Assembly: GCA_025765595.1 (NCBI GenBank)
Contig: JAIVFH010000044.1
Location: forward strand, 124,001 to 188,000
Source of the DNA: Obelidium mucronatum
Taxonomy: Eukaryota > Chytridiomycota > Chytridiomycetes > Chytridiales > Chytriomycetaceae
Direction: 5' to 3'
Length of the DNA stretch: 64,000 nucleotides
The position numbers were made by a program, and so were the translations under genes. Below are positions 1-24,132 of this stretch, piece after piece (the stretch's first letter is position 1; every line of letters begins with the position of its first letter). A model generated the notes under the pieces. That model made no database searches. It saw only the letters and a list, made by a program, of their open reading frames with translations, and had not been told where the DNA came from.

Positions 1-18
1 AAAAAAGGCATACTTACC

Positions 19-195
19 TGAGTCGGAGATGCTGGTGATCACGAAGGCCAGCTCTCCATGGATGGGTTTGGCCATTGCACACACGTGCTGGGCCCGTCTG
101 TGCACAACTCCTTCGGGGGTTCGTGGGACTATAATTTTTCTATCGGGAGTCTCGCTTTCGAGCAGACTCCTGGCCCTTCCTTCTCTTTAAGTGAA
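19..195 (-). other. Possible coding exon of an unrecognised gene, cut by the window edge
   Basis: On the minus strand an open frame of about 55 codons ends at a strong-looking 5' splice site, CAG|GTAAGT, near position 18. It lies just beyond the stop of the CRN-like pseudogene at 210. I do not recognise the peptide, and the rest of the gene would lie outside the window. It could also be a chance frame. Confidence 0.22.
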
Positions 196-209
196 AATGA
201 TGAAACTGT

Positions 210-1888
210 TTATTCCTTTAACAAACCCCACAAGCCTGTACCCAAGCAATCAAAGAAGTCGGGTTGCGTGGTTTCATTCAACAGCTGCACATCATTTTCC
301 ATATCCGTTGCTGGTGAAACCGAGCAAAGAACTCGCCTGATTACTTTTAATTCCAGAACATCAAGCATCTCCTTCCGTTCATCCTCAAATCCAGATAATA
401 CAGTCTTGGTGCTGTTGTTGCAGTAGAAAAAGTTGAAGTCTGTTGTATGGCAAGCATTCACAAGTTGTTGTTTGCTGCACTCGGAACTGGAATCAATCTG
501 AATCATATACACGATGTCATTGTAGATGACTGCAATATCCGGACCACAGAATTGATTGGGGAAAAAGATGTTGTTGTCCTTTTTGTACATGACAAAGGTG
601 CTAAAATCCGCGTGTCTTGATTTGATGATTGCTCCAGGAGCTGATTTGGTGGGATCCAACCATGAACGCGTAAGCCACCAAATATTTCAAAATGTAGTGC
701 TTCTCAGTCATTTGGGGTTTTGGGTATACTCTCAACTGTCGGCAGATTTCGTGCACAATATCTGAAACAGAAATGAAGTATTGTAGGCATTCGACAACAA
801 CGAGTTCCTCCAAGGAAACGGAAAAAATCGAAGACTTGATGGCCTTACAGAAACCAAGACCGTACTGAACTGCATCTGCTCCAATCTGGTCAGATAAGAA
901 GAGTATTGCAGCTTTTCCATTGAAAAGGTATTGAACCAATCCTTGAGTGACAATGGCTGCTACTGTTGAATCATCGACAATAGGATGGAAGCTGCACGTT
1001 CCTTCCCCCTTTTGCTCCTTCATTTTTTCCCTTACGCTATCCTTCCAATAGTGCCTGAGGGGAAACATCCCGCTTGCTGGATTTGATAGCACGAAAATAA
1101 AATCGGCCATGGCAGCTTCAATCGACGTTTTCTTGTCAACAACCGCATCCAAGAGAAATGCGACAAAACAAGGACGTCCAAGGAACAACTTGTTGAACGT
1201 TACAGATTCAACAATGTGCAAGATTCCTTCTTTGGAAAAAACATCCGGGCTGAGCATCTGTCGAATAAATGTTTCGGCTTCTGCCGCATTCAAGGGCTTT
1301 AGATTCGAAATTAGGCTGAACCCATGAACTACCCCACTCTGGAATGCTGCAGATTTCACCATTTCTCTCATATTGCGGTTCCAGAGATGATAAAATTCCG
1401 GAAATGGAGTTTTGATTCAAACACAAGTGGAGAAAAGAAGGGTCTCCCAGTTGTTGTACTTGTTGAGAAGATACATTCTCCCAAGAGAGAACGGTGAATG
1501 TCATCAATAACCAAGAAATCAAAGGTCCCCTTCATTCCTTTCAGTTGCCTTCCAACTTGGGAAGTGTGGTGCGTGGTGGCCAAGAGTTCAAACAGCACAC
1601 GGAATATATCGACGCCTCCGAAAAATTCCCGTGGATGGAGTTGCGCTACCAGGATCTGATCAGGTCTGGTGTACCCGTGGTCCATCAAGTATCCACACAC
1701 AAAAGCTTGGACAAAGTACAGCAACTCAATCAAGTATGTTGTTCGGTGTGGAGACGCATGGCACAGGTCATGACACCTTTCCATGTCGCCGGACCCGAGA
1801 TCCCAGATTTGCCGCGCCGTGACAAAATAGAAACCGTGCTGAGTGGTCAAGATCTCCAAAAGTTGTCTGGTTTTGCCGGATCCCGATA
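210..1888 (-). pseudogene. CRN-like NTPase gene, C-terminal part (P-loop to nuclease-like domain), broken
   Basis: Read on the minus strand, this segment starts inside a Walker A P-loop (GSGKT near 1880) and reaches a Walker B-like LVIDD near 1500. It then has an ISGT segment and a FLGRP..F segment, an arrangement I associate with the NTPase domain of Crinkler (CRN) effectors. The last frame (659-210) has a GPDI...Q-x-D pattern resembling the restriction-endonuclease-type nuclease domain of CRN proteins, but the expected lysine is replaced. Frame breaks near 1370 and 650 join three frames that would otherwise form one protein. The 5' part of the same gene lies 10.6 kb away at 12540-12792, beyond the inserted transposon. 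CRN proteins are host-directed effectors in oomycetes and occur in chytrids. The family call comes from motif memory; the breakage is seen directly. Confidence 0.62.
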
Positions 1889-1890
1889 CA

Positions 1891-1903
1891 CATCAGGAAA
1901 CTG
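1891..1903 (+). repeat. Left terminal inverted repeat of the Plavaka-like element
   Basis: CATCAGGAAACTG, matched on the opposite strand at the right end with one extra A. The flanking dinucleotide CA is duplicated at both ends. Confidence 0.75.
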
Positions 1904-1924
1904 GGGTTTTTGCCGAAATAAATT

Positions 1925-2115
1925 TTGATGCATTTGATGTATTTCAAGGATTTCAAATGCAACATGACGCATTTCAAATGAAAGAAATGATTTCCTTGCA
2001 TTTTAGATGCACTTAGATGCATTTCAAATAATAGAAATAGTTGCTTTCATTTCAGAGACAGAAAGATGCATTTCAAATAATTATAAATATTTTGATGAAT
2101 TTGAGATGATTTAGA
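1925..2115 (+). repeat. Subterminal ATTTCAAAT repeats, left end
   Basis: At least four copies of a TGCATTTCAAAT-like motif lie within 190 bp of AT-rich sequence just inside the left terminus. The right end (12190-12480) carries the same core in reverse orientation (ATTTGAAATG). CACTA-type transposases are known to bind repeated subterminal motifs, so these are candidate transposase-binding sites. Confidence 0.6.
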
Positions 2116-2177
2116 TGTGTTCAGATTCTAGCCAGGGACTATGTGAAACTGAGGGATTTCTGCAAGGAGTTGACTTT

Positions 2178-2335
2178 CTAGGGATTGATCCCAGGCACAT
2201 AAGGCAAAGCTAGGGGTTGATCCCAGGGACTCTAAGGGACTTCCTAGGGATTGATCCCAGGCACAAAAGGCAAAGCTAGGGGTTGATCCCAGGAACTCTA
2301 AGGGACTTCCTAGGGATTGATCCCAGGCACAGAAG
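2178..2335 (+). repeat. 66-bp tandem repeat, 2.4 copies
   Basis: Units start at 2178, 2244 and 2310 with a period of exactly 66 bp. Each unit contains two half-units built on CTAGGG(A/G)TTGATCCCAGG, itself an imperfect palindrome around GGGATTGATCCC. Further decayed half-units continue to about 2390. It lies between the subterminal repeats and the transposase stop and has no coding potential I can support. Confidence 0.8.
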
Positions 2336-2443
2336 GAGACTATTGGCCCTCTTGGGAGTTGATCCCCAGGACTTAAAGGAAAGTATAGAAATCAGAATTT
2401 ATTAACCAAAAATATCAAGGAAAATTAAAAAAATCAAAAGCAA

Positions 2444-5400
2444 TCAAAAAGAGCATGGAATTTGTGACCAAACGTACTTATCGGAATAGCTATTCAAATA
2501 AACTTGTCCACTTCTACCCTCCCTTCCATCTTGAAAAAATGGCACCACCCAAGCACGCATACCAACCTTTGCAAGTGGTACAACTACTGTACTTTTTGGC
2601 AATGGTTTTTCAAAAATCCAGCACCCAGTATTATTCTGCCTTTCAAGCGGGAGGGTATGGTACTGCTGCAACAACGCAAAGGATGTATTTGCCTTATGAT
2701 CAGCCTGGCATACCCTGAACAATGCAACAAGGCCACCGAGTGCCCAATTACTTCCTTTTATCCCATTTCCTGTACCTACATCATACAGGCAACAGTGCTT
2801 ATAGGAAGGGCCAGTCCGCAGATGTTGTATCGTTGGAATTCCATCTTCATCATGATCTGTAATTTTCACTGTGCGATAGAATACAGCCTGTAATTTCATT
2901 AATGTGTGAAAACTAACAAAGACTTACTTTGTTGGTTGCAAGTTCCAAGTGCTTGCTAATCTTTGCCTTGATTCCAGAATATTGCAAGTCAGACGACTTG
3001 TCAAGGATATGAAAAAATGACATATGCATCTTGTGTTGAAGTCCCATCCCAATTTTTTGTGTATTCTCAGCCCAACCAAAAACGCGCGATAAGATTATCA
3101 TTTTGTCCTGACGGGCAACAAAACGCATCATCTATAGTTATTTTTAGATTCGAGACTTTCAGCTTATCTTTCAGAAAAGACCTGCTCTTCAGCATTCTTT
3201 CGGTTGGATGCAAGATATGCTTTGACTACATCATTAACATGGCTTGCCTCAACAGCTTCAGTGCCGTAGCCATCAGGAGCACCAAGTTTTCGAATCAAAT
3301 GCGCAAATTGGCCAAATGTGTGGAGTTTCGGAAAGCAAAGCTTTGACTGTAACTTAAACGTTAATTCTGAAATAAATCAGCTGTGCAAACCTTTGAGTTT
3401 GCCAAAAAGCATTTTATCTGCTGCTCAAATTGAACAAATTTTTGCTGCATGGCATCTAAATCAGTATCCGTGAACGCCGTTGAAGAGATAGTCATGACTA
3501 AGTCATTAAAGGTTTTGAAGCATTCCAACTGTTGTTCATCTAACAAGTCAACTGTGCAGAGTAGCAATGACTAAAATTTCGTGTTAGGGGAATAAAACCT
3601 AGCATATGCATCACCTTCATAATTGCTTGATAGTCGTCCCTTGTGAGACGGCTGTGCAACGTTACACCATTCTTAAACGTTTTAATACCTGGAAATTTTG
3701 CAGGAAATTTTGAAAGAGTGACAAATCTATGATAATTTAAATGATGCAGCCAAATTAAGGAGGAAAGCATCACCTTGAATCAAGTAAATCAAGCCCATTC
3801 TCTGGATACTCTTCTTCAATATTAGCTTTAATAAAAAGCCACAAATGATGAGCAAAAACCCCAGATTCATTGACATGAAGCTTGTCTGGAGTAATCGCCT
3901 CATGAATACAAAACGTTGGACCAAGAGCATAGAATGCATTCTATGTCAAATTTAGTTTAAGTGCAGACTTGTCATTAAATCTCACCTGGATATGTTCAAC
4001 AATGCTGTGAGCCTGAAAAAATTTTGTCGTGAAGTCTTTGCGTTGATTTGGCTACCTTGCTGAATCAATTCCTTCATTTTCTTGGTTGTCTTGAGGTCGT
4101 AGAATTTTCCACATGGATCCCCACAATCACACAAATGGTCTTCTGGAACAAAACAGCATGTCATTGGTGCAGATTTTCCTGCGACAGTCAACGACAACAT
4201 GCATAGTTCTGGATAATCTCCATTTACATGCATAAGTACAGGAAAATACCAGCGGATTCTTCCATCAGGGCTTTCCAACTCAACACCTCTAATACGTTAA
4301 ATTTATATAAACACCATTAAAATATTTTAACATACTCTCTTATCCAGTCTTCAATGTCTGATAAAGCAGTCCTTAGTACAGCATGGAAGAATGCCCTTTT
4401 GAAAGCCAAAAGCCAAGCCGGGGATTTTGACTCACTGTTGGAGTTTTTGTGAATTTTTGGCATGTAGAATAGTAATTGGCGAGATCGATTTGATAGTATT
4501 TTTCGGTAGCCCTTGTTTAAATTTGCTGGTTACCCAATTTTGTTGTTAGTGAACTAATTAGTGGTGCTTAGTTCTTTCAAACCAAAATCTAAGTGAAACG
4601 GATGGAATGATTTTTTCCCAAGCTTTGTTGCTATAGCTGCGTCAGATCCGATAGTGAGAAGCAGTGCCGTTGCCCCATCTGGTAGCATATTCTAAAGTAC
4701 AGTTTCAGTTTAAGTACAGTAAAGATGCTTATACCTGAAGTGTCTCACAGCGATCTGATGACCATGCCTCTGAATAAAGGCGATTGTTTTGAGAATCGAT
4801 TTGCCGCTTAAACTTATATTGAAAGTGGCTGTCAAGTGAACGATCTTGAAGCGTTGTCTGAATAACTTTTCACATATGGCGAATGTAAACATTAGAGTCC
4901 ATTGTTTGATAATAGCGTTTAGCAAGCAGCTTAAATTCCGGCGGCAAACTAATTGAGATTTCTTCGAATGATATGTTGCGCAGCTCGTAATCCTGAAGTA
5001 CAATTGACATGAAATTCAAAACTTAAAACGGCATTTGCTTACCACACTCAATTGCAATTCATCCACAGCATCGAGGAGCTTTTTTCCAGATTTAAATGTA
5101 CATAGGGACTCCTTTGGGAACCATCTTGACTGAAACTGCAGGAGTCTATGAAAGATTCACGTTAAATTTTGCTAATTGTTTAAACTTACTTAGTGATTTC
5201 CGATTGTCCCATCGGATTATCAAGAATAACGTGCTTCATGAAACTTATGTCAATTGGCTTGAATTTTCGCATTATCTCACGCTTTTGTTGCAGGAAAGTA
5301 GACTCAACAATTTCTGAATTTACTGGTTTTCCTATTTATTTTATTTTTATTAGTTTTATTTAAATCAATGGCGTACCATAATTTCGGTTGGGTTCTTGAG

Positions 5401-5689
5401 GTTCTGGAGTATGCGATTTTGCAGGGGAAGTTGGGCCATTTTGGCCAGAACCTGGAAATTGTTCCATATCCTCATCGGCATCAAAATCTAGAAATATTTA
5501 ATACAACACTGGATTCCATTGATAGTTTTACCTCGAATATTTTCTTCTGGTGTCTGGTGCTGAGGCGGTCTGGTGGGTATGTTTGCGTTACTTTCTGTCA
5601 CATGATATTTGTCATAATGAGCCGATAGCAGATGTCTTGCTCTTTTTCCTGTGAAATGTTTTAGACACCAGTTGCAGTGCATGCTCATT
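2444..5689 (-). CDS. Plavaka-type transposase, multi-exon
   Basis: Several exons read on the minus strand, joined by short introns. From the N-terminus they give a C-x2-C...H...H zinc-finger-like segment (near 5600-5690), then a block with SPDGRIRWYFPVL and a cysteine-rich stretch (4278-3982). Next come a block with NAFYALGP...ITPDKLH (about 3935-3780) and one with FPGIKTFKNG (about 3715-3610). A helical block with HLIRKLGAPDGY follows (about 3340-3170), and then a C-terminal part with VVPLAKVGMRAW (2899-2444). This order matches the Plavaka transposase family as I know it. Introns such as the one between 3984 and 3935 have proper GT..AG ends, so the gene may be intact. Exact exon limits and the start (ATG at 5689 or upstream) are unresolved. 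It is divergent from the companion gene at 5775. Confidence 0.72.
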
Positions 5690-5774
5690 TTGCACGTTTT
5701 TTCAAAATGAGAAAAAACGTGACGAAAAGTTGAGTTCAAAATCAAACAATAAACACAATACACGCAAAGGAACA
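5690..5774. promoter_or_regulatory. Shared intergenic region between divergent transposon genes
   Basis: About 85 bp separate the likely minus-strand transposase start and the plus-strand companion ATG at 5775. Both genes must start their reading frames from here, so a bidirectional promoter is inferred. No specific motif was identified. Confidence 0.4.
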
Positions 5775-6113
5775 ATGAGAAAGATCCCTTCTTCAGACAA
5801 TGAAGCTGCTTCAGATGATGATGCTATGGTGCAAAAATAGTAAGAGCTGTCATTCTTTGAAAAGCCCAGATGCATAGTCACTTCTAAAACTGATCACAGC
5901 AGAAATCCACGCAAAAAGCGAAAACAAACCAGATCAAATAGTCCAGTCCTGGATGATATGTTTGATGAAGAAGAAGAAGCAGATTTTAATCACAATGACG
6001 ATGACTTGGAGAGTGATCAAGAGAACACTTCCCCTGAAAAACCAATTCCCTCAAACTTAAGGTATTTATTTACCTATTATTTATTTAATTTATTTATACA
6101 GTAATTCAGGAAG

Positions 6114-6118
6114 AAGAC
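6114..6118. repeat. Target-site duplication of copia 1 (AAGAC)
   Basis: AAGAC precedes the left LTR at 6114-6118 and follows the right LTR at 10857-10861. Ty1/copia integrases make 5-bp duplications. Confidence 0.9.
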
Positions 6119-6383
6119 TGTTGGATTTTGGATAGTTTTTGGATGGTAGTTGGAATTAGTTGAAACTGAATTCGCGTTTCAGAATGGTTCAACGTTGTGA
6201 TTAGATTTTTTGGGCCTGGAATTCGTATTTAAGGAGTGGTTTTCCCCTTTGTTTTTCTTCATTGAATTCTGTGTTATTTATTTGGTTTGACACATACAAA
6301 CAAATAGGTAAAATATATTGTGATTGAATTCTGTGTTATTTATTTGGTTTGACACATACAAACAAATAGAATATCCACCGACA
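6119..6383 (+). repeat. 5' LTR of copia 1
   Basis: 265 bp, TG...CA ends, with a TATA-like GTATTTAAGG near 6226. A 47-bp segment beginning ATTGAATTCTGTG occurs twice within it, 63 bp apart (about 6263 and 6326). Confidence 0.92.
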
Positions 6384-6429
6384 CGTTATCAGCACCAAGT
6401 TCTACGATTACGATTGCGATCCTTAGACT

Positions 6430-9400
6430 ATGGGCGACGATTTCTACAAGGCAATTCAGTCCTTTGAATCAAGAAGTGCCGATTGGCCGCATTTCTATTT
6501 AAAGTTTTCAACTGTCCTTGAAGCGAAAGATATATTGCACGTCTTGGACAAACCACCGACGGAAGCCAAGGATGAGACTGCTCTTGCGATTGCGGTGAAG
6601 CAATGGAAGCAAGATGATGCCAAGGCTAGGGCGTATTTGGTCGGCAAATTGGGTGGTGACGCTCTCAACCTCGTCGAGCACTGCAAGACTGTAGCGGATA
6701 TGATTGCGGTCTTTAAAACTCAGTATGAATCGGATTCAGCGTCTTCGTCGTTGTCAAGACTGGATCGATTACTGGATGTGTCCTATAAAACTGGATCGGA
6801 GGTGTCAACTTACCTCGGTACTATGAATGGGATATTCACTGAGATTGCTCACAATGGAGGCTTGGATATCGATAAATTGCATGCTACTCTGTTGTTGCGT
6901 GGCTTACCTGACGATAATGATTGGCGTGGATTCAAAACGGCCATCAGAGCGCAGGAAGAGTCGAATCTATCCAAGGAGAAGATTTCTCGCTTGGTAACCG
7001 AACATGCGAATGAATTGAGACGCAAGTCGGGTGGTGGTGAAGGTGGGACGTTGAAGGGTGCCAAAGGCCAGACGGCTTTTGTGGCAGGGGATGATGAATG
7101 TTTCAGATGTGGAAATTCTGGTCATCGTTGGAAAGATTGTAGAAGTAAGCCGAAGCCAGGTTGGAAGGATCGGTCTGCAGGTGGAAAGGGAAAGGCAATG
7201 ACAGCCCAACCTGTGAAGAAGGATAAATCATCGAAAAAGGCGGTTAGCTTTTCATTCATGGCGAATGATAAGTTGGTATCGGATGTTGGATCTGGTTTAT
7301 GGATCGACGATCTGGGGGCGACGAAAACATATTGTTTTGATCGTCGGGTCTTCAAATCTTATGAAGATTATGTTGGAAATGTTAAAGTGGGTAACAATGA
7401 GGAGTTAAGAATTAGCGGTGTGGGTATGGTGGAGTTTAAGTCAGTGTTGACAGATGGTTCTGTGACTACTGTTACCTTGGAAAGGGTTTACCACGTACCG
7501 GACATGGCAGCAAACCTCGTTTCGACATCAAGTTTGGATGCGAAAGGTGTTACAACGGAGTCGTCAAAGGGAATTCGCCGCTTTATGTTGAATGGCGTGG
7601 AATTCATGCATTCTGTGAAGAATCGCGACGGGCTCTGGATTCTTGCTATTGAACCTAAAAGTGCATCTGCGCACATTGGGTTAGTAGCGGCTGATCTAAA
7701 ATTGTGGCATCAGCGGTTGGGGCATTTGGGTCTCGACAATATGAAACGTTTGCAAGGAATGGTAAACGGACTTACCTTGTCTAAAAAGGATTTGGACGAA
7801 GGATTGGGCTTCTGCACTGCTTGTGTGGAGGGAAAACATCAGCGACGTAGTTTTAAAGCATCAACCAATGAGCGTGCGAAAAACCCGATGGATTTAATCC
7901 ATATTGATTGGGTAATTGTCAATGTACCTGGGTTGGATGGCGAAACGTTGGCGTTGGTAATGACGGACGATTGTACTGGAATGCGGTTTTCATTTCCGGT
8001 AAATCAACGCTCTGGTCTTCAATTGGTCAAGATTTTCAAGGCTTGGCAGCCATGGGCGGAACGTCAATCGGGTCACAAGTTAAAGTGTATTCGATCTGAT
8101 AATGGGAAAGAATTCAAGGAGGGCGAATTTGCGCGCTACTTGGAGAATTTGGGTGTGGAACAACAGTTTATTGTTCCATACGAACACGAACAAAATGGAG
8201 TTGCCGAAGGTTCAATTCGGATCCTGTTTGAAAAAGCACGCACAGCGCTACTGGACACCAAGAAACTACCGTTGAAGTATTGGGGTAAAGCGTTGACGTG
8301 TATGACTTACGTGGCAAATAGGTCGCCGTATGCGGACTTAAAAGTTACACCAATTGAGGGGTTTACTGGAGTTAAACCTGATTTTGGGAAAATGCCATTG
8401 TGGGTGTTTGGAGCTGCTTGTTGGGCGAAAGTGCCAAAGGAGCTGGTTAGGGGTAAAAAGAAGTTAAACTCGCGCTCAAGAGCATGTTTATTTCTTAATT
8501 ACGTTCAAGGCGGTCATGCCTATGAGGTGGTGGATGTTGTGACGAAAGAGGTTTTTGTTACCACAAACCTGAAGTTTGATGAACGTGGTGATTCTTTTGA
8601 GGGAAAGTTTCCGGAAGAATTGGATGACATGTGCGATTTGTTGAGTGGAAGTGATGGAGAAGATGAAGATTATAAAGTAGCTCGTGTGGACGAGGGGGTG
8701 ATGGGAGGTGGTGAAGTAGATGAGGATGATGTACCTGATGAAGCCACGGATTATGCTTCTGAATATGGAACGGCGCCATCGCCAGCATCATCAACTACAA
8801 CGTCAATGTTTGGAACTCCTACCTCAGCTACGGCGTCTTCGGGTCCGTCTACACCAACTCAGTCGCGTCCACGTCGATCTATCTTGAAAAAGAACTACAA
8901 TGAGGATTCGGAAGATGAGTATGGGCATTTTGCTTACGCTATAACAGTCCCTAGAACCTATCAGGATTTAATGCGGCTGAGTCCTGAAGAACAGCGGATG
9001 TGGCGTTTGTCAATGGAAAAAGAATACGATGCACTTACCGAGGATCATGATACATGGGATTTGACAGCCGATAAGCCAAGAGATAAGAAGGCGTTGCCAT
9101 CAACTTGGGCTTTTGCAAAGAAAGAGGGTCCGACGGTTCTACCAGAGGAAGCTCGCAAGTCTTGCTTGTGTGTGCGAGGAGATTTGCAAACATATGGGGT
9201 TGATTACCTCGAAACGTTCGCACCGGTTGCGAAGTTGGCGGCTATTCGGGTCGTTTTTGTATTGGCGGTTGCGTGGAAAATGGAAATTCACCAATCTGAT
9301 GTTAAAGGTGCGTTTGTCAATGCGGACTTGGAAGGCGAAGAAGTCTGGATGAAGCAACCACCGGGTTTTGAAAAGTTTGGGCCTAATGGGGAAACTTTGT

Positions 9401-10530
9401 ACTGTTACCTGAAGAAGGCACTGTATGGTTTGCGTCAAGCGGGAAACTGTTGGCGAAAAATGTTGAAAGCATTTATGGAAAGTATTGGGTACTTAGCACT
9501 TATCGCGGAGAAGTGTATTTTTGTGAAATTTAGTACGTTTTCTGGGAAACCAATAATTATCATCGTCTGGGTCGATGATATACTGGCGTTATTCTGCAAA
9601 TTGGACCGAGAGGAATTCGATCGATTCTGGAAGGCGTTTACGACCAAGTTTACAGTTAAGGACTTGGGGAGTGTAGCACGGTACGTTGGAACAACTATCA
9701 AAAGGAATGTTGAGGAAGGGTGGTTATCGATTGATCAGACTTCGTCCGTTTTGGAGATTGTAGGAGAGTATCAATTGCTAAATGGGAAGGAGCGAAAGAC
9801 TCCGTTTCCAACTGGTGTGCGACTGGAGAAGTCTGCCGAAGGAGACGTTGAGACGGAACACAACTACCGTAGTCTTGTTGGGAAACTGATGTATCCGATG
9901 GTTTGGTCGCGACCGGAGTTGAGTTTTTACCTTGGAGCTTTGGGTAAACACAACTCGAAGGCAAGTACGGCACACTGGAATGCTGGACTGGAAGTTGTTC
10001 GTTATCTGTCAGCAACTTCAAATTACGGTCTTCACTACAAAGACAATGGTCACCTGAATCTGGAAGTTTGGGTGGATTCGGATTGGGCTGGAGATATGCA
10101 GACGGGTAAATCGGTCTGGAGCTACCAAGTGTTCTTGGGAGGCAATCTTGTAAGTTGGAAAAGCAAGCAGGACTCTATTACCTCAACATCGACAGCAATG
10201 GCGGAAATCGCGGCAATCTTTTATGGTCTTGGTGAGGGACTCTGGCTGATGGAATTGTTGAAGGAACTTGGAATCGACATCAAATCCTTCAAAATCTACA
10301 GCGATAATATGCCTGCAGTTAAGATCGCGAATAGCGATAAGGCGTTGGAACGGATTAAGCACGAAGTGGTTCGCGTGGAATTTATTCGCGATCATGTTCG
10401 ATCCGGAGTTGTTACAGTTGGTCACGTCGCAGGGATAGAGAATTGTTCGGATATTGGAACGAAGAATTTACCGTATCCATCGTTCGCGAAACACAGGGAG
10501 TTCATGGGAGTACGACCTGTTAGTGGCTAA
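6430..10530 (+). CDS. copia gag-pol polyprotein
   Basis: The 1366 residues run in copia order. First is a gag domain, then a CCHC zinc knuckle (CFRCGNSGHRWKDC, about residues 222-235). Next is an aspartic protease with WIDDLGAT near residue 292 where DSGA is usual. A GAG-pre-integrase segment (WHQRLGHLG) follows, then an integrase core with Asp near IHIDW, Asp in RSDNGKEF and Glu in NGVAEGS. Next is reverse transcriptase with SDVKGAFVNADL and the WVDDIL catalytic box, and last RNase H with VDSDWAGD. The reading frame is complete. The protease Leu in place of Ser next to the catalytic Asp, and STSTAMAE where copia RNase H usually has SSTEAE, are departures from the family pattern. Reverse transcription and integration are the expected roles. 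Confidence 0.95.
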   Translation: MGDDFYKAIQSFESRSADWPHFYLKFSTVLEAKDILHVLDKPPTEAKDETALAIAVKQWKQDDAKARAYLVGKLGGDALNLVEHCKTVADMIAVFKTQYESDSASSSLSRLDRLLDVSYKTGSEVSTYLGTMNGIFTEIAHNGGLDIDKLHATLLLRGLPDDNDWRGFKTAIRAQEESNLSKEKISRLVTEHANELRRKSGGGEGGTLKGAKGQTAFVAGDDECFRCGNSGHRWKDCRSKPKPGWKDRSAGGKGKAMTAQPVKKDKSSKKAVSFSFMANDKLVSDVGSGLWIDDLGATKTYCFDRRVFKSYEDYVGNVKVGNNEELRISGVGMVEFKSVLTDGSVTTVTLERVYHVPDMAANLVSTSSLDAKGVTTESSKGIRRFMLNGVEFMHSVKNRDGLWILAIEPKSASAHIGLVAADLKLWHQRLGHLGLDNMKRLQGMVNGLTLSKKDLDEGLGFCTACVEGKHQRRSFKASTNERAKNPMDLIHIDWVIVNVPGLDGETLALVMTDDCTGMRFSFPVNQRSGLQLVKIFKAWQPWAERQSGHKLKCIRSDNGKEFKEGEFARYLENLGVEQQFIVPYEHEQNGVAEGSIRILFEKARTALLDTKKLPLKYWGKALTCMTYVANRSPYADLKVTPIEGFTGVKPDFGKMPLWVFGAACWAKVPKELVRGKKKLNSRSRACLFLNYVQGGHAYEVVDVVTKEVFVTTNLKFDERGDSFEGKFPEELDDMCDLLSGSDGEDEDYKVARVDEGVMGGGEVDEDDVPDEATDYASEYGTAPSPASSTTTSMFGTPTSATASSGPSTPTQSRPRRSILKKNYNEDSEDEYGHFAYAITVPRTYQDLMRLSPEEQRMWRLSMEKEYDALTEDHDTWDLTADKPRDKKALPSTWAFAKKEGPTVLPEEARKSCLCVRGDLQTYGVDYLETFAPVAKLAAIRVVFVLAVAWKMEIHQSDVKGAFVNADLEGEEVWMKQPPGFEKFGPNGETLYCYLKKALYGLRQAGNCWRKMLKAFMESIGYLALIAEKCIFVKFSTFSGKPIIIIVWVDDILALFCKLDREEFDRFWKAFTTKFTVKDLGSVARYVGTTIKRNVEEGWLSIDQTSSVLEIVGEYQLLNGKERKTPFPTGVRLEKSAEGDVETEHNYRSLVGKLMYPMVWSRPELSFYLGALGKHNSKASTAHWNAGLEVVRYLSATSNYGLHYKDNGHLNLEVWVDSDWAGDMQTGKSVWSYQVFLGGNLVSWKSKQDSITSTSTAMAEIAAIFYGLGEGLWLMELLKELGIDIKSFKIYSDNMPAVKIANSDKALERIKHEVVRVEFIRDHVRSGVVTVGHVAGIENCSDIGTKNLPYPSFAKHREFMGVRPVSG

Positions 10531-10591
10531 AGAAGTTCAGTGAAGTGTTTGGGGGTTGTTCATCACAAGTTAAATTACGAATTAGGGGGTG

Positions 10592-10856
10592 TGTTGGATT
10601 TTGGATAGTTTTTGGATGGTAGTTGGAATTAGTTGAAACTGAATTCGCGTTTCAGAATGGTTCAACGTTGTGATTAGATTTTTTGGGCCTGGAATTCGTA
10701 TTTAAGGAGTGGTTTTCCCCTTTGTTTTTCTTCATTGAATTCTGTGTTATTTATTTGGTTTGACACATACAAACAAATAGGTAAAATATATTGTGATTGA
10801 ATTCTGTGTTATTTATTTGGTTTGACACATACAAACAAATAGAATATCCACCGACA
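10592..10856 (+). repeat. 3' LTR of copia 1
   Basis: 265 bp, identical by eye to the 5' LTR, followed by the AAGAC duplication at 10857-10861. Confidence 0.92.
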
Positions 10857-12189
10857 AAGACTAAGTCTGCTGGTAAAAGTGTGGATAACCAGGATGAAAC
10901 TCCAAGATCAAGGTAGTATCACAATCTTGATCTTCTTAATTTGATTATTTATTATTTATTATTATTTTACCAGAGCGTCTGCATCTCAATCAGCATCAAA
11001 AACACAATCCAGGTTAGTTGCGTCTATTTTTGTTTGATTTTTTTAATTCTAAAAAAGCCACGTAGTCTCAACAACCGCAACCAGGCCAGGCCCAATGCCA
11101 ACATTGAATACCAGGCGCCACCTCACTCAAATAATCAAGCAGGGAGCTCGAGACCCACGCCACCAGTCCTTACGTTTGCTGCTGCCCTGAATCCTGAGTG
11201 AGTGTGCAATGTTTTGACCAATGCTCCTGACACCTAACTCAATATTGCCAATCAATAGGCGCAAAGCCGCAATCTACACGAGCTTCAAGGTGGCCGCTTT
11301 GACGGTGGACTTGTTTCCAGTCCCTGGTGCACCTCAACAAGTCATTGCGTGGCAGGCCTTTGCCAAGATGCTTGGCAATGGCAACAGCGTCACTCAAACC
11401 AAAGATCAATACTCAGCGGACAAATTGGCGATTTTTAATTATGTGAGTTGCTTTCTTTTTTATTTGGACCGCTTTCGCTCAACATTATCAGCACATGACA
11501 AAAACACAAAAGTATCGCAGTGACATTCTGAACAGGGCTGCCAAGTTCATCAAAGCCAACAATCCATACAATCTTCCAGAAGGCTCCGAGGGTGCCGCTG
11601 CTGCCGCTGCTGACCTGATCACAACTGACTCCAAGTACGTACAACCAAAATTGACTAAAATTCATCTAAAATCGTCAATTTATTCTACAGGTATCTATTT
11701 GTATCGAAAGTATCATCCAGTGGTCGTTTGTTGCTCCAATCCCAGTTTCTCAGTCCAGCGTTCCTTCGAGTTGCAACCCACATTGCTACTGATAGCTCTG
11801 TCAGCAACATCCGCAATTTTCGGGAACTTTCGAAACATCCAGAGTTCATGTTTGCCTGTGCCGCTGTTGTGAGTGTGCTTTTTTAATTCTTCACCTTAAT
11901 CAATCACTCATTATCACATTGGGCAGACTCGCCACCTCCTGGAACGAATTGCGCTACAACAAACCGGAACTTTCAACGAATCATGCTCATCAGCCCTGGT
12001 GTACTCGGAATACATGGAGATTTTGGCGGATTCTTCGACACAGGCAAAGATGGAACAGAAAGCCGAACGGTTTTATTTGGAATTGGAAAAAAAAATCAAG
12101 AAGAAGCCTGATGTTGGTGGCCAGAAGTGTGACAGTGATGTTGGTAGTGACGCGGAAGCGAATTGAGTGTGTTTATTTGGAATAAATCA

Positions 12190-12480
12190 GTGTTTCAAAT
12201 GCATTCTCAATTATGTCAGATTACGTGTAACATTACAAAATGCATGAAATGATTTAGTTTATTTTAAAACAATTGCAAAATGCTCAAAATCATTTATGAT
12301 GATCTCGCTCTATTTAGAAATTCAATGAGATATTTGCAAGAATCTCAGATATTCGCCAAATCCAGCAAATGGATTCAGATCTGGGAAAATCATTTCCTTA
12401 GATTTGAAATGATTTTGAAAATTTCAGGTATTTGAAATGCGATGCGAAATCCTGGCGAATCGATTGGCCCATTTGAAAAA
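12190..12480 (-). repeat. Subterminal repeats, right end of the Plavaka-like element
   Basis: AT-rich stretch with several AAATGATTT and ATTTGAAATG motifs, the reverse complement of the left-end ATTTCAAAT motif. No coding potential seen. Confidence 0.55.
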
Positions 12481-12525
12481 TTAAGACACATTATAATTTA
12501 TTATGTTACAACTAATCGCATTTGG

Positions 12526-12539
12526 CAGTTTTCCTGATG
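12526..12539 (-). repeat. Right terminal inverted repeat of the Plavaka-like element
   Basis: Reads CATCAGGAAAACTG on the minus strand and pairs with the left end at 1891. Confidence 0.75.
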
Positions 12540-12792
12540 CACAGAAGAGGACTTTTATATCATTGGCTCCGTCGAGGGTATAATCCGTTCTTCTGTCAAT
12601 CAGGAAGCTCTCTAAGCAGTTGTTGCGGAACTGTGCAGAGTACGGGCGGTCGAGCCGGAATGGGGCAAGTTGATTCATTTTGAAGTGGAGGAGCTTGATG
12701 GCATCTTGGGTAATACATAGATTGAGGCGGTTCTCGAATACAAATTCTTGGCTAGAGGTTTGAAAAAGTGGCTTTGGTGCAGCTGGCGTCAT
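12540..12792 (-). pseudogene. CRN-like NTPase gene, N-terminal part, cut off by the transposon
   Basis: The minus-strand frame starts with ATG at 12792 and encodes about 84 residues (FENRLNL..., FLIDRR..DYTLDG) before running into the terminus of the Plavaka-like element. The frame on this side of the transposon is in phase with the P-loop segment that begins at 1888, once the element and one target dinucleotide are discounted. This is therefore the 5' end of the same gene. No ubiquitin-like CRN header is visible before the ATG. The gene cannot make a full product as it stands. Confidence 0.6.
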
Positions 12793-12869
12793 GGCTACAG
12801 TTCTGACGTTGCTCTCGTTTTTTGGGGAAGAAAAAACAAAGTGAAAACTTTTCCATAGTAATAAGCTGT

Positions 12870-13108
12870 TTATTGATCAAGATTGATGTGAATTATGTTT
12901 TCCTGGGTCCCAAATACGCACTGGACACTCTCAAACGAGCCCACCTTGAAAAACACAGTTATTCTGTTTGAATGATTTCGGACATTTGTCGGTTGTCCTG
13001 ATTTGCTGCGTCGAAGATCCACCACTACGTAATCTGATGCGCCCAGTTTAAAGTACTTTCCAGCTGGTGAGAATCTCAACAAATGCTCCGCAATTCCGTC
13101 ACCATTAA
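12870..13108 (-). pseudogene. CRN-associated nuclease-like gene, 3' part, split by copia 2
   Basis: The minus-strand frame ends with a stop at 12870. It contains GKYFKLGASDYVVVDLR and a segment ending in TVFFK..F..V.CVFG, which resembles the end of the restriction-endonuclease-like domain found on CRN proteins. It runs without a stop into the copia 2 LTR at 13109 and continues in phase on the far side at 20129. The host gene is upstream of, and on the same strand as, the CRN-like NTPase gene, so the two look like a tandem pair. The family call rests on remembered motifs. Confidence 0.5.
13104..13108. repeat. Target-site duplication of copia 2 (ATTAA)
   Basis: ATTAA occurs at 13104-13108 and again at 20129-20133, directly outside the two LTRs. 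Confidence 0.88.
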
Positions 13109-13310
13109 TGTTTGATATGTCAAACGGGAATTCTGGATAATAAAGTTATTGTTTATTGTAATTCACTTTTTCGGAGTTTTAATTAGTAATAGAATGTTCC
13201 AGAATCGTCCCGCCCGCCATACACGTCCAACAACGGAATCCTGACGTATCCTTGAGTTGTCCGTGATCGTAATAGCTGGACTATTGGCGTTCTAGTCAGC
13301 GGATCAAACA
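13109..13310 (-). repeat. 3' LTR of copia 2
   Basis: 202 bp, TG...CA, with the same termini as the copy at 19937-20128. It carries an extra 10 bp (TAATAGAATG-like) near 13190. Confidence 0.88.
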
Positions 13311-13443
13311 CCCCCTTGCGACAATGTGCAGCGGGTTGACGATCACTATAATATCTTCCCCCTTGCGGCAATTTGCGCAGGTTGGAGCTTTTACTTAATA
13401 ATTTTAAATTTTAATAATAAATATATCCCCCCTTGTATTTATT

Positions 13444-14067
13444 TCAAAATTTGAAGTGGCGAATAGCGTTTGCTCGCTCATCTCCATTTTGTAATTCGGT
13501 AAGAGTCCTCATACCCATTTGTCTTACAAGCTCTTTATGTTGTTTTACTGGTAATGCTTTTGTAAGGATATCAGCAACCATTAATTCGGTTGGACAATAA
13601 ATTAATTTTATTTCTTTGTTTTCTAAGTGTTCTCGAATAAAGAACATTTTAATATCCATGTGTTTTACTCTCGCATGATGTACTGGATCAATCGCGATAG
13701 CCATGGTTGACATATTATCTTGGAAGATTGTCATCGGATCTTCGATTTCAATATTTAATTCTTCCAATAACATTTGCAGCCATCTCGCTTCTTTGACAGC
13801 TTCGGTAAGTGCAATAAATTCAGCCTCAGTCGATGATAATGCAACTGTTGATTGTTTCTTTGAGAACCAATTGATCAGGCAGCCGAACGCATAAACGACA
13901 AAGCCGGAACGGGACTTTCGTTGAGGTTCGCCAGCGTAGCTCGCATCTGCCATTATGAAAGGCGCAGTTTTGCCTTTTAGTTTTATTGGATCACCCGTGA
14001 TTCGGGACATCATCGGTGCATCAGTATCTTGGTCATTTGCGTTTGGATCGTCCGATGCCGTATCCAT
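13444..14067 (-). pseudogene. copia 2 RNase H portion of pol
   Basis: About 207 codons with the copia RNase H pattern: ADASYAGE, a WFSKKQSTVALSSTEAEF segment (standard SSTEAE), FQDNMSTMAIA and a terminal ADILTKALP. It should continue from the RT frame at 14145, but an intervening stop or frame change separates the two. In an active element it would degrade the RNA strand during reverse transcription. Confidence 0.85.
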
Positions 14068-14144
14068 GATTATAACTGGATTTTGCGTCGGTTTATAAAA
14101 TAGACCTAAATCGTAAGTAAATCTTACGTATTTTAAAACTCTAA

Positions 14145-16946
14145 TTAATGCATCGTAATCGCATTGTCTAGGTTTATTTTGGTATTGCTCAAGTCTGGTC
14201 TCGTCACTTGCGCCAGGTGAGATAGTTTCATATTTATCGATAATATTTGTTTCTTTATCTTATTACATATGATTAGTGGACTGTTTTCATTGTGTGTCCA
14301 AGATTCACTTAATGGCGATTCCTTCATTTGGTCTCGGGTAATATCCCAAAAACCGGTTTCTTTCAATAATTCTTTGGTATAATTCGTTTGTCCTAACCAT
14401 ATTCCGCCATTTATTCTTTCAATTTGGACTTTTAACATCCAGTTGGCGTTATCATTTTCGGTAATTGTGAATTTTTGTTTTAAAAGAGTTTTAACTATTT
14501 CGATCGCGTCTTTAGAATTACTCGCAATTAGAATGTCATCTACGTATATAAGTACTATTATCATTTGTTTTGTTTCAGAGTCAAATTTAAACATCATACA
14601 GTTATCGGATGCAAGTTGTTTGTATCCATTGTTCTTAAAATGGTCGCGAATAACTTTATAAAATTCTCGCGAGGACTGGTGAAGTCCGTATAACGTTTTC
14701 TTTAATTCGGCAATTAGTGGGTCACCTTCATTATTTGTTTCTTCGAAACTGGGTGGCATTCTCATAAAATTCTTTTCTCTTAGTATTCCATGTAAGAACG
14801 CGGTCTTTATGTCTGCCGTTGATGTATGCAACCCAAGTAACATAGCAAGAGCTAAAGTTAATCGAATGGCTTTCATTCTAACAACCGGTGAGAATGTTTC
14901 TTCATAGTCTTCATTTTTAATTTGACCTGATCCAACAGCAACAAGTCTTGCTTTGAATCTTTCCAGGAAACCTAAAGGATCCTGTTTGTAGTCGAATACC
15001 CATTTGGAATTTATCAACTTTCTGCCTTCGGGTAATTCTTTTATGCTTTTCTTGTCGAAAACCCCCAAGTCTCTCAGCGATTCAAATTCAATCAGCATCG
15101 CTTTCTTCAGGTAACTTGCGAATTTATGATTTATTGCTTCTTTTAAATTCTTCGGTACTGGACCTAAATCGGAGACTTTTATTTTCCCAGGCGGTGTTGC
15201 TGAATCAGCAACGTCATCCCAGTTTATTTTATCTTTTGGAGCCCGTGTGCGATTTATATTCACCGCAGCGGCTTTAAATTTTATTTCTTGTTTGTTTACA
15301 AAGTCATCGAGTTTTCGGTATTGTTTTTCTATTTTCTTTCGATGGTTTCTGTGTTCAATTGAATTACTTGATTTGTTTTCGTCATCAGCTAATAGTTTAA
15401 ATAATTTCACATTATTTGTCATTAATTCGTCTAAGACGATCGAGGTTAATACTTCGGGTATGTCTTCGACGTTATTTTCGTTTATTTCAAATTTATAATT
15501 AACGCCATACATTTTAGGTTTCGAGACGATGTTTTTCTTCAATGGTTCCATCACATTGAGTTTCGGTCGTTTCGATCCAACATCCGCAGTCGTTGGCCCT
15601 TTTTCTTTGGCATTTGGTTCTGTATTTAATTTTGGAATTAATACTGGTTTGTTTTCCGTTTTCCGTTTCTTATTTATTTTCTTAATGTATTTAATTTCAT
15701 CTGATTTAGCACACTTTCCTGCCAACGGGATTCGCGCTTCTCCTTCAAGATCGCTCATGTCGCTGATATTGGGAGATTCTAAATCAAGTGAGTCTACTTC
15801 ATCTTTTCCATTTGCATTCAATATTTCTTTTTCTTTTGGATTTTTATATTGAATCACCTCTTCCTCAGGACACCCGAGGGATTCTGCGTGTTTCGCTGGA
15901 TTTGTGTGGTTCTGGCCGGATACGTTCACAGTCTCCAGTCGGAGTTGACCCTGGAAATTTAAGTTTGTGTCTAGGACCTTTGTTTCAGTTCCGGAAATAT
16001 TTGGCGGTTGCGTTTCTCCGGTAAGTACCACTTCTTTCGGGACACTTGCACCAAATATTTCAGCCGTACTCACACCCTTGAATTCTTCAACATGTAGGTC
16101 TTTATATGCCGATTGTTGAAGTAGGAACGGATTCAAGTGATGCGGTCTCAGGACTAGACCAGGAAAGATTGTCGGGTAACATCGAATGTGGTACTCGGTA
16201 TTCACAGACGCCGTTCTAAAATTATAAACCCGCAGCAGCGAATTACCGTCAAATCCCAAGAAAATAACCGGTTCTCCTTTATGGAACTTGGTTCTGCGGA
16301 CGAGTGGGTCTTTTATTTTTCTGACCTCGGCTCTTATTTCTTCGGGAATTAACTTCATCGCTAGGCAACCAAATGGATGGAAGTTTCGAATATCTATATT
16401 TATTGGTCGTGGTAATTGTTGGCACGGTATTTTCTTTGTAGTTGAATGCACTGACGCATTTTCTGTTAGTACAGTATAATCTAACGCAAACTCTATATAT
16501 TCAGGTGGGAGAAGACTCTGTTGTAGGGCACACGCCGCTCTATGGCCGGTTACTCCAATTGGTTGTTCGGCTCCACCATTAAATTCTTTTATATAACTTG
16601 GCGAAGGTTTGTGTTCCCATAAGTTATCAGGTTTTTCACAAAACTCATTAAAATCTTTTGTATCCATTTCACCTCTATCAGATCTCCATTCAACTATTTT
16701 AATGTTATGTTTCTTTTGTATTTTCTCACCGAATTCTCCAATCTTTTGGTCTAAGTCTTTCTTGTTTCGATGCCATAATAACCATTTAAATTTTGTACAG
16801 GCGTAAACAATCAGACTTGCATATTTATATCTATGATACGTTTCCATTAATAGTGGGAATGTATCTTCGTATAATGTGTATCCAAAAGTCGGTGCGGTAA
16901 GTTTTGACGAACCAATTGGTTTTCTTTTAATGGCAAATGTTAGAAC
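14145..16946 (-). pseudogene. copia 2 integrase core and reverse transcriptase portion of pol
   Basis: A long minus-strand frame of about 930 codons. It enters from the chromovirus insert and begins the copia part at AIKRKPIGSS. It has the second integrase Asp in WRSDRGEM and a Glu in IKEFNGGAEQ. A long acidic/basic linker follows, then RT with SKWVFDYK, TADIKTAFLHG and the YVDDI catalytic box. The first part of the integrase zinc domain lies on the other side of the insert, so no intact integrase can be made. The frame stops at 14145, before RNase H. Confidence 0.85.
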
Positions 16947-16949
16947 CAG

Positions 16950-17600
16950 ATAGTCAATAAAAGACTTAAGGGTTCTTGAAGGCACGAGGGCTTAGGGGGC
17001 ACGAGGGCTTGTCCAATAACGGCTTGAGGTCACGAGAGACGGGATTGAAGAGTTACAAAACTGAAGACTAACACAGAATGTATTGAAACTGAACTAAAAC
17101 TCAGAGCAGAAAGCTTGCTATTTATGCAAGTTCTGGGATTTCAAATAACAAAAGTTCAAAACTGAAAACAAACTGAAAATCAAACAGAAATTGTGATAGC
17201 AAGAGTGATAGCACAATAATATGTGAAATCAAGAATGATATCACAAAATGAAACTGAAAAACTTAGTAAAGTGACAAATCAAAGATGACAAATACAAAAA
17301 TAGAAACTTAAAGTAAAAAGTTACTAGCGGGAATCGAACCCGGGTTTCCACCGTGAGAGTCGCGCGTAATGACCACCAAGCTACGGAACTATAGAGAAAT
17401 ATGCCTATAAGACTGGTAATTCCTAACATCATCCCCTTCTTTTCTTGCGATTGCGAACACTTGTAGCAATCGCACCAGGACCAGGCTTATCGGGATATTT
17501 GGCATGGAATTCAGAAACCAACTCAGCAGAACCAGAAACATTGGCAGCAGGCTCCCAAGAGCGGTCAGAGTTAGAATAACCCATCCAGTGCACTAAATAT
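16950..17600 (-). mobile_element. Chromovirus (Ty3/gypsy) 3' fragment inserted in the copia 2 integrase
   Basis: From 17600 down to 17429 the minus strand encodes the end of a chromodomain (VHWMGYSNSDRSWEP, then ELVSEFHAKYPDKPG) and a short basic tail ending in TGA. A sequence starting TGTTAGGAATTACC at 17428 then runs about 460 bp to about 16966, with a TATA-like CATAAATAG near 17120, as expected of a 3' LTR. Copia coding sequence resumes on both sides. Only the last part of a chromovirus is present: no RT, integrase or 5' LTR. I see no target duplication, so this is a template-switch, repair or deletion product rather than a standard insertion. Confidence 0.75.
17320..17391 (-). other. tRNA-like sequence (A and B box) inside the chromovirus LTR
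   Basis: The minus strand has a TAGCTTGGTGG A-box-like and a GGTTCGATTCC B-box motif at tRNA spacing, with CTCTCAC where an anticodon loop of tRNA-Glu(CTC) would be. The acceptor ends do not pair, so it is not a functional tRNA gene. It may be a captured tRNA or SINE segment in the LTR. Confidence 0.55.
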
Positions 17601-19911
17601 TACAGTCCGTATCGCATTTCGAAAAATCAAATTCAATGTTTCTTTCTTTTAACGTGCGACATACGCCTTTTACACCGATGTGGTTTAATTTATAGTGCCA
17701 TTTCATATAATCATTTTCTACTTTCTTATTTTGTGAAGTTGGCATAATAAATTTCTTTTTCTTTTCTTCTTTAGCGTTTAATTGCTCATCTTTCTTATCG
17801 CTCGGTTTTGTTTTATTAGTTTTGGTATTATTTGCTTTTTCTTTGTTTTGTCGGATTTTCGAAATTTCGAGATAATATAAGTCGCCATGCCTTTTCCCTA
17901 TTTGAACCATTTGATTTAATTCTTTTAAGTATAGATGTACCGCATTTTTGTTTAAAACGATTGCGTCGTCCGATTCACCCAGTAGGTGTGTGACTGACAT
18001 CAATGCTTCAGTTAACTCAGGTACGTATAACACGTCTTCGACTTTTCTCTTTATTCCATTTCCGATTTCCAGAACAATAGTTCCGTATCCTTCTACCGGA
18101 ATTTTTGAGTCGTTTGCTAAGTATACGTATTTTCCGTTCGATGGTCTAAAGTCAATTAAATCCTTTTTATTCGGAGTCATGTATTTTGATGCTCCACAAT
18201 CAACCATATCTTTGGTTGTCTCGGTATTTAATTTAACTTTGTTTGCGATCAATTTGTTACATTTTTGGCAACCACAACATTTTATTTCAAATAATCCGAC
18301 TTTGTTTAAAATATTTTCAAATAACTTCAATAAATAATTATTATCTTTCGATAATTCCGTTGTAAATTCAAAGTTTGCCTCTTTACTCATCGGAATCTTC
18401 GTCGTTGTCATCGGAAGAGTTTCTTTCAGAGTCGTCATTGGTTTTTCTGGAATCTTCTTCGGTTCCTCCAACAAAACATGCTCTGGTGGGTTCAACTTCC
18501 TCCTTTTTGTATTTTGTTTGTTAATATTATTTATATTATTTTCATTTGAACTTACGTTCAACAAAGCTTGAAGTCTACTCATGTCTTCTTCTTTGACTTC
18601 GACATGATTTCCACGCGTACGTTGTTCAGTCTTTGGCTTCTTTTTGTAAGTACTTTCACGTTCGCGTTGAAACTTGCTTCGTTTTGACTTTGCATCCAAA
18701 ATCGCTTTCTCCAACTCCTTGTGTTTACCAAATTTCATCATAGTGTTGACTTTGGAACAATCTTTGAGTTCGTGAGGAGCTCCCGAAGGATGAAGGACGC
18801 ATTGATTCACCGGGGATTCACTACGTTCGCGTTTCTTCGACTGGTAACTATTGTTTTGTTGTCGATTTTCGTCTTCGCGTTCGTATTTCTTACTGTATCG
18901 CCCCCCCTTGTAATATGGATCAAATACAGACGAATTTGCTTTGGCTTTGGCCGCGGTTTGTTCCTTTTCGAGTTCGTTTTGATAATCTCGAAGACATCCA
19001 CTCATTGCATCCAGCAAGGTACGTGCCGAATTGAACTTATTGTGGCCGTCTTTGCGAATTTCTGAAGCAACATGCATGAAACAGTTTCCCATTACAGTGT
19101 TGGGATTGGGAAGCATAGCCTTACATGCCGCTAAAAACAAATCTGTCAAGATATTGTCCAACACCGTCGTTTCATCATTCGGTGCGTATCTTGGCTTTAA
19201 AACTTGTGCTTCGTCTTTGAACTTTTCAGCTTCAGCCAGGAACGACTTCAAATTGGCAGCGTCATTGCGTTTGAATTGACCCGCTAGATTCAAGACTTTC
19301 GTAAAATACTCCGAGGCCTGGGTTCCCGAGGCATCAACGTGAGCGATTTCCGATTCCAATACTTTGATGGCGTTGAACAAGGTAGGTTTCGCCTTAAACT
19401 TCTCATCGCGAGACACTTTGTTGATTAAATCCGCATCTTTATGAAATAATTCATAAAGTTTCGCGAAAGCTTCAGCGTGGCGCGACTTAATTTTCTTCGC
19501 CTTTTCAACCTTCTTGTTGTATTGTTCAAGTTCCATGTCGTACGCCTTCCATTGAGATACGTACAAATTGTTTCTGTTTTCGTAACTCTTAATTGACGCG
19601 GCGTTTGCAGTAATATTGGTATTTGCTGTAGCAGCGTCCAAAGCACCCTCTTCAATAGTTTCGGGCATCAAGACCGGATGTTCAGGTCGTTGAATAGTTG
19701 GCTCCCTTGGCCCCGCGATGGTTTTATAGTCCATCAACTCATCATCTTCGGTGAATTCATTATTGAATCCGAGACTTTGATAAATAATGGCCAAGTCTTT
19801 TTGACATTGTGCCCAGTTAAGAGCTGTGTAGCCCCCTTCATAAGTTTTGCGAAATTTCCCAATAAGGAAGTTCGCGTTTTTGTTTTGGCTCGAGTTGTCG
19901 TTTGAGAGCAT
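17593..19911 (-). pseudogene. copia 2 gag-protease and start of integrase
   Basis: The 772 codons start at an ATG at 19911, about 25 bp inside the 5' LTR. The first half is a charged, helical gag. A protease-like segment VDCGASKYMT follows near 18190, with Cys where copia protease has Ser in DSGA. Next is the GAG-pre-integrase motif MKWHYKLNHIG. The frame ends at CDTDCNI, inside the zinc-binding part of integrase, where the chromovirus insert begins. No CCHC knuckle of normal spacing is obvious. Confidence 0.85.
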
Positions 19912-19936
19912 TATTACGTCGTTAAATACGTTGTTG

Positions 19937-20128
19937 TGTTTGATATGTCAAACGGGAATTCTGGATAATAAAGTTATTGTTTATTGTAATTCACTTTTTC
20001 GGAGTTTTAATTAGTTCCAGAATCGTCCTGCCCGCCATACACGTCCAACAACGGAATCCTGACGTATCCTTGAGTTGTCCGTGATCGTAATAGCTGGACT
20101 ATTGGCGTTCTAGTCAGCGGATCAAACA
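19937..20128 (-). repeat. 5' LTR of copia 2
   Basis: 192 bp with 8-bp inverted termini, followed by the ATTAA duplication at 20129-20133. Confidence 0.88.
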
Positions 20129-20300
20129 ATTAACAAATAATTCAATACCCCAGCGAAGGTCTCCATTCAAGTAAAAGTCAATCTCGCCAAGAACAGTTCC
20201 TGATTGAATCTGGATAAATCTTTGATAGCTCTGGACAAATTGAGCAATCCGCCCTTGCAAACCGAGCCAAAAACAAACGCTGAAAAACCGGGATTTGATT
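20129..20300 (-). pseudogene. CRN-associated nuclease-like gene, 5' part, split by copia 2
   Basis: The minus strand encodes LGEIDFYLNGDLRWGIEL just before the copia 2 insertion point. The E-x-D...G-I-E spacing resembles the catalytic core of REase-type domains on CRN proteins, though the residue after GIE is not the usual lysine. The frame is in phase with 13108-12870. The true start is unclear: a stop lies in this frame near 20305, and an ATG in another frame at about 20308 suggests a further frame break or an intron. Confidence 0.45.
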
Positions 20301-20409
20301 ATTCATCTGATATTTGAAATAGAAATGCGTATTTACTTCCTTAAACTTTTACATCCAGTGGATAAACGTAGCGATAAGAAAAAACAGCTGAAAAAGACAC
20401 TCGTCTCTG

Positions 20410-22122: not shown

Positions 22123-22692
22123 TTGTGTTTTTTGTTTCTTTTTCTGCTTCGGCGCTCCTTTTCAATTTGTTTATTGATGAAAAAATGAAACTCATCATTC
22201 AAGCTTCTTTTGCCGAACGACAACAGTGCCGAAACAGAGTCCCAGGTTGAGAGACAGCACAAGCACAAGCGTGAGCAGCGAATACCAACAGCCGCCAGAT
22301 AAAGTGGATGGAATCAACGTTGTCTGTGAGAGTGTGTGCCCGTTGATCAGTTACTAAGCTAACTGAAAACGCGAAGAAGAAACAACATACACTGTACGAT
22401 GCTCCAAAATGTGACAGCAAAACATATGGAACTTGCCAGTACGATTTCCTCCACAAGGAGTCAAACGCCAAGACTCCCCACGTTGTATGAAGAAAGATGA
22501 ACAAACACGTTGTTAAAGCTATCGGAATTCTGTGGTGTTTAGCGATAGGTCTTCCCCACATACCCACACTCGACATAATATACCTGAAATAAAGAACATA
22601 TCATGAGATGGACACGAGTTGCAGTAAATCATTCCAGGGTTCGATGAATTCGCTAGCTGCGTGACAAACATGACAAGGCCAGACATGATTCC

Positions 22693-22696
22693 ATAT
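22693..22696. repeat. Target-site duplication of the gypsy element (ATAT)
   Basis: ATAT at 22693-22696 and 29554-29557. Counting it once restores the APH-1 frame, which supports a 4-bp duplication. Confidence 0.85.
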
Positions 22697-23469: not shown

Positions 23470-23524
23470 GCAATTGGGCCTGCTACGTCTGTAAATCCCA
23501 AATACCTAGAAATTGTAAATCACC

Positions 23525-24118: not shown

Positions 24119-24132
24119 CAGTTTCAAAGACG

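Follow-up and report, generated by a model that had tools for sequence, protein, structure and literature searches.

Points of comparison for the locus reported here are found in earlier work. In PMC5289972, the Crinkler (CRN) gene PITG_23144 of Phytophthora infestans carries a gypsy insertion in its C-terminal domain, and the relevant part of PMC12730594 defines PlavakaB DNA transposons by CATCA..TGATG ends and target-site duplications of 2 or 3 bases. The present locus lies in a 64-kb window, positions 124001-188000 of contig C44 (contigs are numbered with C throughout and all belong to one assembly of Obelidium mucronatum), and consists of two Crinkler-type sequences, termed gene B and gene A, which are interrupted by a PlavakaB-like transposon and by Ty1/copia elements. 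Comparison with contig C104 makes it very probable that these two sequences were degenerate when, on one of two homologous copies, they took two independent insertions, and that the insertions are passengers. The initial annotation had read the block as a four-level nest; the nesting itself was confirmed, while a single four-level stack was rejected, as two three-level stacks adjoin each other, one with copia-1 inside Plavaka inside gene B and the other with a chromovirus fragment inside copia-2 inside gene A.

Obelidium is a saprobic chytrid of the order Chytridiales, and many chytrids are diploid. Within its assembly (48.3 Mb, 694 contigs), C104 is colinear with C44, with interruptions, over 74 kb (C44 114001-188000 against C104 41803-95107). 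The two differ by 1005 substitutions in 43,376 aligned bases, counted on an alignment chain that omitted one stretch found in other C44/C104 comparisons, and by 2.4-2.7% close to the nested block. Judged from the sequences, C44 and C104 are most likely two homologous chromosome copies of one strain. If C104 were instead a segmental duplicate, the block would represent a paralogue difference within a haploid genome; this is unlikely in view of the colinearity across 74 kb, with interruptions that resemble insertions, and of two more contig pairs, C74/C352 and C319/C494, which are also 97-98% identical and fit uncollapsed haplotypes.

At the block itself, window positions 1-1887, 12532-13108 and 20126-22696 match one unbroken stretch of C104, from which both the Plavaka and the copia-2 insertion are absent. 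Together with a Plavaka copy elsewhere that is free of copia-1 (see below), the assembly thus contains an uninterrupted counterpart for each of the three insertions. These counterparts fit the junctions that had been inferred beforehand, apart from three substitutions where Plavaka is inserted, and the flanking duplications CA, AAGAC and ATTAA were found where they had been placed, to within a base or so. An artificial joining of unrelated repeats is scarcely credible: the elements of the block are indeed multi-copy repeats, but a matching target-site duplication accompanies each of the three insertions and the host flanks join up, to within a few bases, along a single unbroken stretch of C104.

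Gene B is encoded on the minus strand in two parts, a 5' part at 12540..12816 that ends just before the P-loop and corresponds to residues 127-215 of the Rhizoclosmatium globosum protein P0003, and a frame-broken 3' part at 213..1890 with a P-loop NTPase and an endonuclease-like domain of Crinkler type, both delimited by alignment to P0003 and by the C104 homologue. When searched separately, its four pieces were collinear with P0003 residues 127-215, 217-390, 395-618 and 619-768. The Plavaka element is inserted immediately before the SGxGKT motif of the P-loop, and the five fixed positions of this motif are identical in 36/36 aligned homologues (the alignment held 36 of the 37 homologues found). 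The frames on either side of the insertions had been described as in phase, and this held at the two host insertion points, each of which is crossed by one open frame in C104 (503 codons across the Plavaka site), but not for the genes at large, as frame breaks away from the insertions and without any transposon are present in gene B of both C44 and C104. The endonuclease motif of gene B is degenerate, with the same change in C44 and C104 at a position that is fixed in 33 of the 35 homologues having a residue there.

Gene A, also on the minus strand, is a C-terminal stub of a Crinkler. The last 78 codons of its endonuclease domain lie at 12873..13108 and show 48% identity to P0041 (residues 569-645), which comes from a chytrid and is listed with PF20147, and 49% to a protein of Phytophthora palmivora assigned to the Crinkler (CRN) family by one source. 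The other piece, at 20129..20302, comprises the NTPase end (20211-20288, in another frame) and the start of the endonuclease part, with 68% identity to P0041 545-566 and a homologue in C104. What both haplotypes retain is confined to some 30 residues from the NTPase end and to the endonuclease end; when the window and C104:50001-60000 were searched by tblastn (E <= 0.01), neither a header of gene A type nor the main part of the NTPase was detected, while a relative on C86 was, as a control. The earlier description of two tandem minus-strand CRN-like genes is therefore correct as to the CRN relationship but claims too much for gene A. A chitinase frame (PF00182) ends about 100 bases from the gene A remnant. 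A second tandem arrangement was seen at locus L037 (C384:5960-9388), where about 1 kb separates a gene A-type endonuclease end from the gene B-type gene that comes after it.

Decay most likely began before the insertions, because the truncation of gene A and the endonuclease-motif change of gene B are common to C44 and the insertion-free C104. The course of events would then be that two Crinkler-type sequences, already degenerate before any transposon arrived, were entered separately, gene B by a PlavakaB-like transposon whose putative companion gene was later entered by copia-1, and the endonuclease stub of gene A by copia-2. The insertions may have survived since the genes were already non-functional, as neutral passengers and not as the cause of decay. 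This relative order, in which Plavaka followed the host genes, copia-1 later entered Plavaka and copia-2 arrived separately, agrees with that first deduced from the breaks, but the transposons probably did not start the decay. Had they been its cause, they would have struck intact Crinkler genes in tandem, which degraded afterwards. The position of Plavaka, which splits gene B at the P-loop and would alone be enough to end the gene, and the 503-codon frame spanning that site in C104 speak for such a course, but it is improbable, as gene A is equally a stub in C104, the motif change occurs in both haplotypes and the C104 frames are broken without any transposon.

Several observations weigh against the account preferred here. 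Colinearity, and not read depth, is the basis for treating C44 and C104 as alleles instead of duplicates. Some of the frame breaks may be assembly errors, as C104 is the longer sequence at each of the nine indels in window 1-1887, seven of which involve a single base. For gene B, tblastn recovered no header from the window or C104:50001-60000, a weak negative given that headers are divergent and that the header of a C15 relative was recovered only with its own sequence. The LTR (long terminal repeat) date of copia-2 lies only weakly below the haplotype divergence. Finally, where Plavaka is inserted on C44, the C104 bases do not match the C44 flanks letter for letter, the three substitutions falling within 4 bases, and the site may be an excision scar instead of one that was never filled, with chance as the alternative; comparable clusters of substitutions occur elsewhere four times in 12,929 aligned bases.

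In the scar reading, which is rather unlikely, Plavaka would have occupied this P-loop position before the split of the haplotypes, and would then have left C104 and stayed on C44. If this were true, the insertion would predate the split, and the chytrid PlavakaB would visibly move by cut and paste, in a way that can be followed by comparing the two haplotypes of a single strain. A check for scars at other Plavaka sites covered six of seven left flanks (that of C11 was omitted for low complexity, and six right flanks were fetched and left unused), and second matches were mostly repeats. The C170 site was the only one with a single second copy (96%, on C68); the base at the junction is different in C68, but no far end of the element could be located in the part of C170 that was read.

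The assignment of the host sequences to the Crinklers rests on homologues, because a Pfam search with the host pieces matched no family; the intact relatives mostly matched none either. The expected resemblance to CRN families was accordingly seen at the level of homologous proteins and not as a Pfam match. P0003 itself carries the Crinkler header PF20147 (32.3 bits, cut-off 24.6), which is rare among the relatives (1 of 37 in one set and 3 of 65 in another) and absent from 8 of the 9 B-type relatives scanned. The P-loop NTPase characteristic of CRN proteins is present, and both genes have C-terminal endonuclease sequence by homology, that of gene B with a degenerate motif and with no Pfam family matched. 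The copies in the window are Crinkler-derived remnants and not working members. An intact relative on C15 matches the Obelidium mucronatum protein BDR26DRAFT_817945, and a second relative matches C29. With a model of P0001, an intact relative, as the query, Foldseek yielded a single match at E <= 0.001, to a chain of the mouse cytoplasmic lattice, and its TM-scores were low; matches to STAND/AAA proteins and viral endonucleases were weak, and at least a fifth of the rows in the VIA-align list cover only residues 164-588.

The Plavaka element that interrupts gene B occupies 1891..12539 (no strand assigned), with the ends CATCAGGAAA..CCTGATG and the 2-base target duplication CA at 1889-1890 and 12540-12541. 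Its ends were fixed through other copies, the outermost base of the respective end being the start in 10 of 13 left-end and 11 of 17 right-end matches, the window's own counted. Nine other copies were read out of a larger number; one on C20 with an altered end was set aside and the C170 copy was read at one end only, and 7 of the 8 for which both ends were read have intact termini and a perfect 2-base duplication. The transposase is in pieces, two of them recognised on the minus strand: one at 3985..4296 matches PF18759 above its cut-off (29.6 bits, cut-off 26.3), which bears out the proposed Plavaka affinity, and a second at 4735..4920 matches PF18759 positions 36-99 below it (23.4 bits) and contains one in-frame TGA. 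With this domain, CATCA..TGATG ends and a 2-base duplication, the element is PlavakaB-like. A putative companion gene on the plus strand is cut by copia-1 into a 5' part (5844..6118), an open reading frame that runs on without copia-1 in the copies on C163 and C3, and a 3' part (10857..12175), which comprises several frames, is probably spliced and was traced by the same comparison. Four pieces of it, three of them from the 3' part, were scanned against Pfam with no family above cut-off and no TET/JBP among the matches. Tandem 66-base repeats are present at 2172-2369 within the element, two copies being near-identical and a third 64% identical.

Copia-1 (6119..10856, plus strand) has one open frame at 6427-10530 with RVT_2 and integrase-core domains, between LTRs at 6119-6383 and 10592-10856, and is flanked by AAGAC at 6114..6118 and 10857..10861. 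Its location within the companion gene, putative as that gene is, was confirmed by the C163 Plavaka copy, which is free of copia-1, has a single AAGAC and is 98.8-99.8% identical over two stretches (521 and 446 bases); the C3 copy is likewise without it. The two LTRs of 265 bases each are 100% identical, and because 0/265 differences at a haplotype divergence of 2.3-2.4% would arise with a chance of 0.0014-0.0020, copia-1 can be regarded with some confidence as younger than the haplotype split.

Copia-2 (13109..20128, minus strand) is bounded by ATTAA on both sides (13104-13108 and 20129-20133), which corroborates a second copia insertion in the other CRN-like sequence. Its LTRs, 202 bases at 13109-13310 and 192 bases at 19937-20128, differ by one substitution and one 10-base indel, and open reading frames lie at 17593-19947, 14145-16991 and 13444-14259. 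One difference in 192 bases has a chance of 0.05-0.06 at the same haplotype divergence, a weaker case than that of copia-1, and with correspondingly less confidence copia-2 is also placed after the split. RVT_2 was found, and no integrase-core (rve) match; the integrase region holds the chromovirus fragment. Copia-type reverse transcriptase, TG..CA LTRs and a target duplication were observed in both copia elements, the integrase core in copia-1 only.

The fragment carried by copia-2, as had been noted at the outset, is a 3' piece of 664 bases from an abundant chromovirus (Ty3), on the minus strand (16938..17601), comprising the end of a probable chromodomain, recognised by eye, and an LTR. With 40 of 124 candidate places scored, the 11 best matches compared contain it at 96-98% and a twelfth locus (L042) contains part of it; the piece ends at a boundary common to those 11. 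One of its ends is an exact LTR terminus and the other is truncated. A copia-2 copy on C40 is without the fragment and continuous there save for about ten bases, while the stretch of C51 that was compared gave no match. The LTR-terminus end would have been joined as in integration and the other end by microhomology (ATATT), with the loss of a few copia bases. A possible but doubtful alternative is that copia-2 picked the piece up through template switching while being reverse-transcribed and brought it along to this site. The microhomology at the truncated end and the lack of a target-site duplication around the fragment would suit such an origin, which is at odds with the exact LTR terminus and with C40, the sole informative other copy of copia-2, being without the fragment, although shared fragments could have been missed, as 40 of the 124 places were scored and the C51 stretch gave no match.

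Beyond the block, window 22697-29553 contains a third C44-specific insertion, with ATAT on both sides and a 1559-codon frame, at which C104 is continuous; judged by eye, it resembles a Ty3/gypsy element. Conversely, a copia-1-like piece at locus L033 (C104:65866-67848) lies in a stretch seemingly missing from C44 and is perhaps an insertion specific to the C104 haplotype.

Each element of the locus belongs to a known kind, and what is added is that two haplotypes resolve the case and that a chytrid carries a PlavakaB-type element. At this locus, for which the same assembly supplies uninterrupted counterparts, loss of key parts from the Crinkler-type genes most likely preceded the accumulation of transposons; without a second haplotype, it is therefore unsafe to take nested insertions in effector-like genes for the cause of gene loss. 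The element also places a PlavakaB type in Chytridiomycota; the two names were not found together in the literature searched, a result that says nothing of other papers or repeat libraries.

Compared with known systems, gene B aligns in order to P0003 with its PF20147 header and gene A to chytrid and Phytophthora CRN proteins, as expected of Crinkler genes, but the window copies are truncated, frame-broken and transposon-interrupted, with no header found. The Plavaka element shares PF18759, the CATCA..TGATG ends and the 2-base target duplication with PlavakaB of the CACTA/EnSpm-Mirage-Chapaev-Transib clade, and differs in its putative companion gene, which has no Pfam family above cut-off and no TET/JBP match, and in its chytrid host, as the families described in the relevant part of PMC12730594 were reconstructed from Agaricomycotina. 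The copia elements agree with Ty1/copia in Gag, integrase or RVT_2 domains, TG..CA LTRs and 5-base duplications, while the foreign chromovirus fragment within the integrase region sets copia-2 apart. Like PITG_23144, the Obelidium locus has an LTR retrotransposon within the C-terminal domain of a CRN gene, and it is distinguished from that gene by two stacks, an empty-site haplotype and a DNA transposon.

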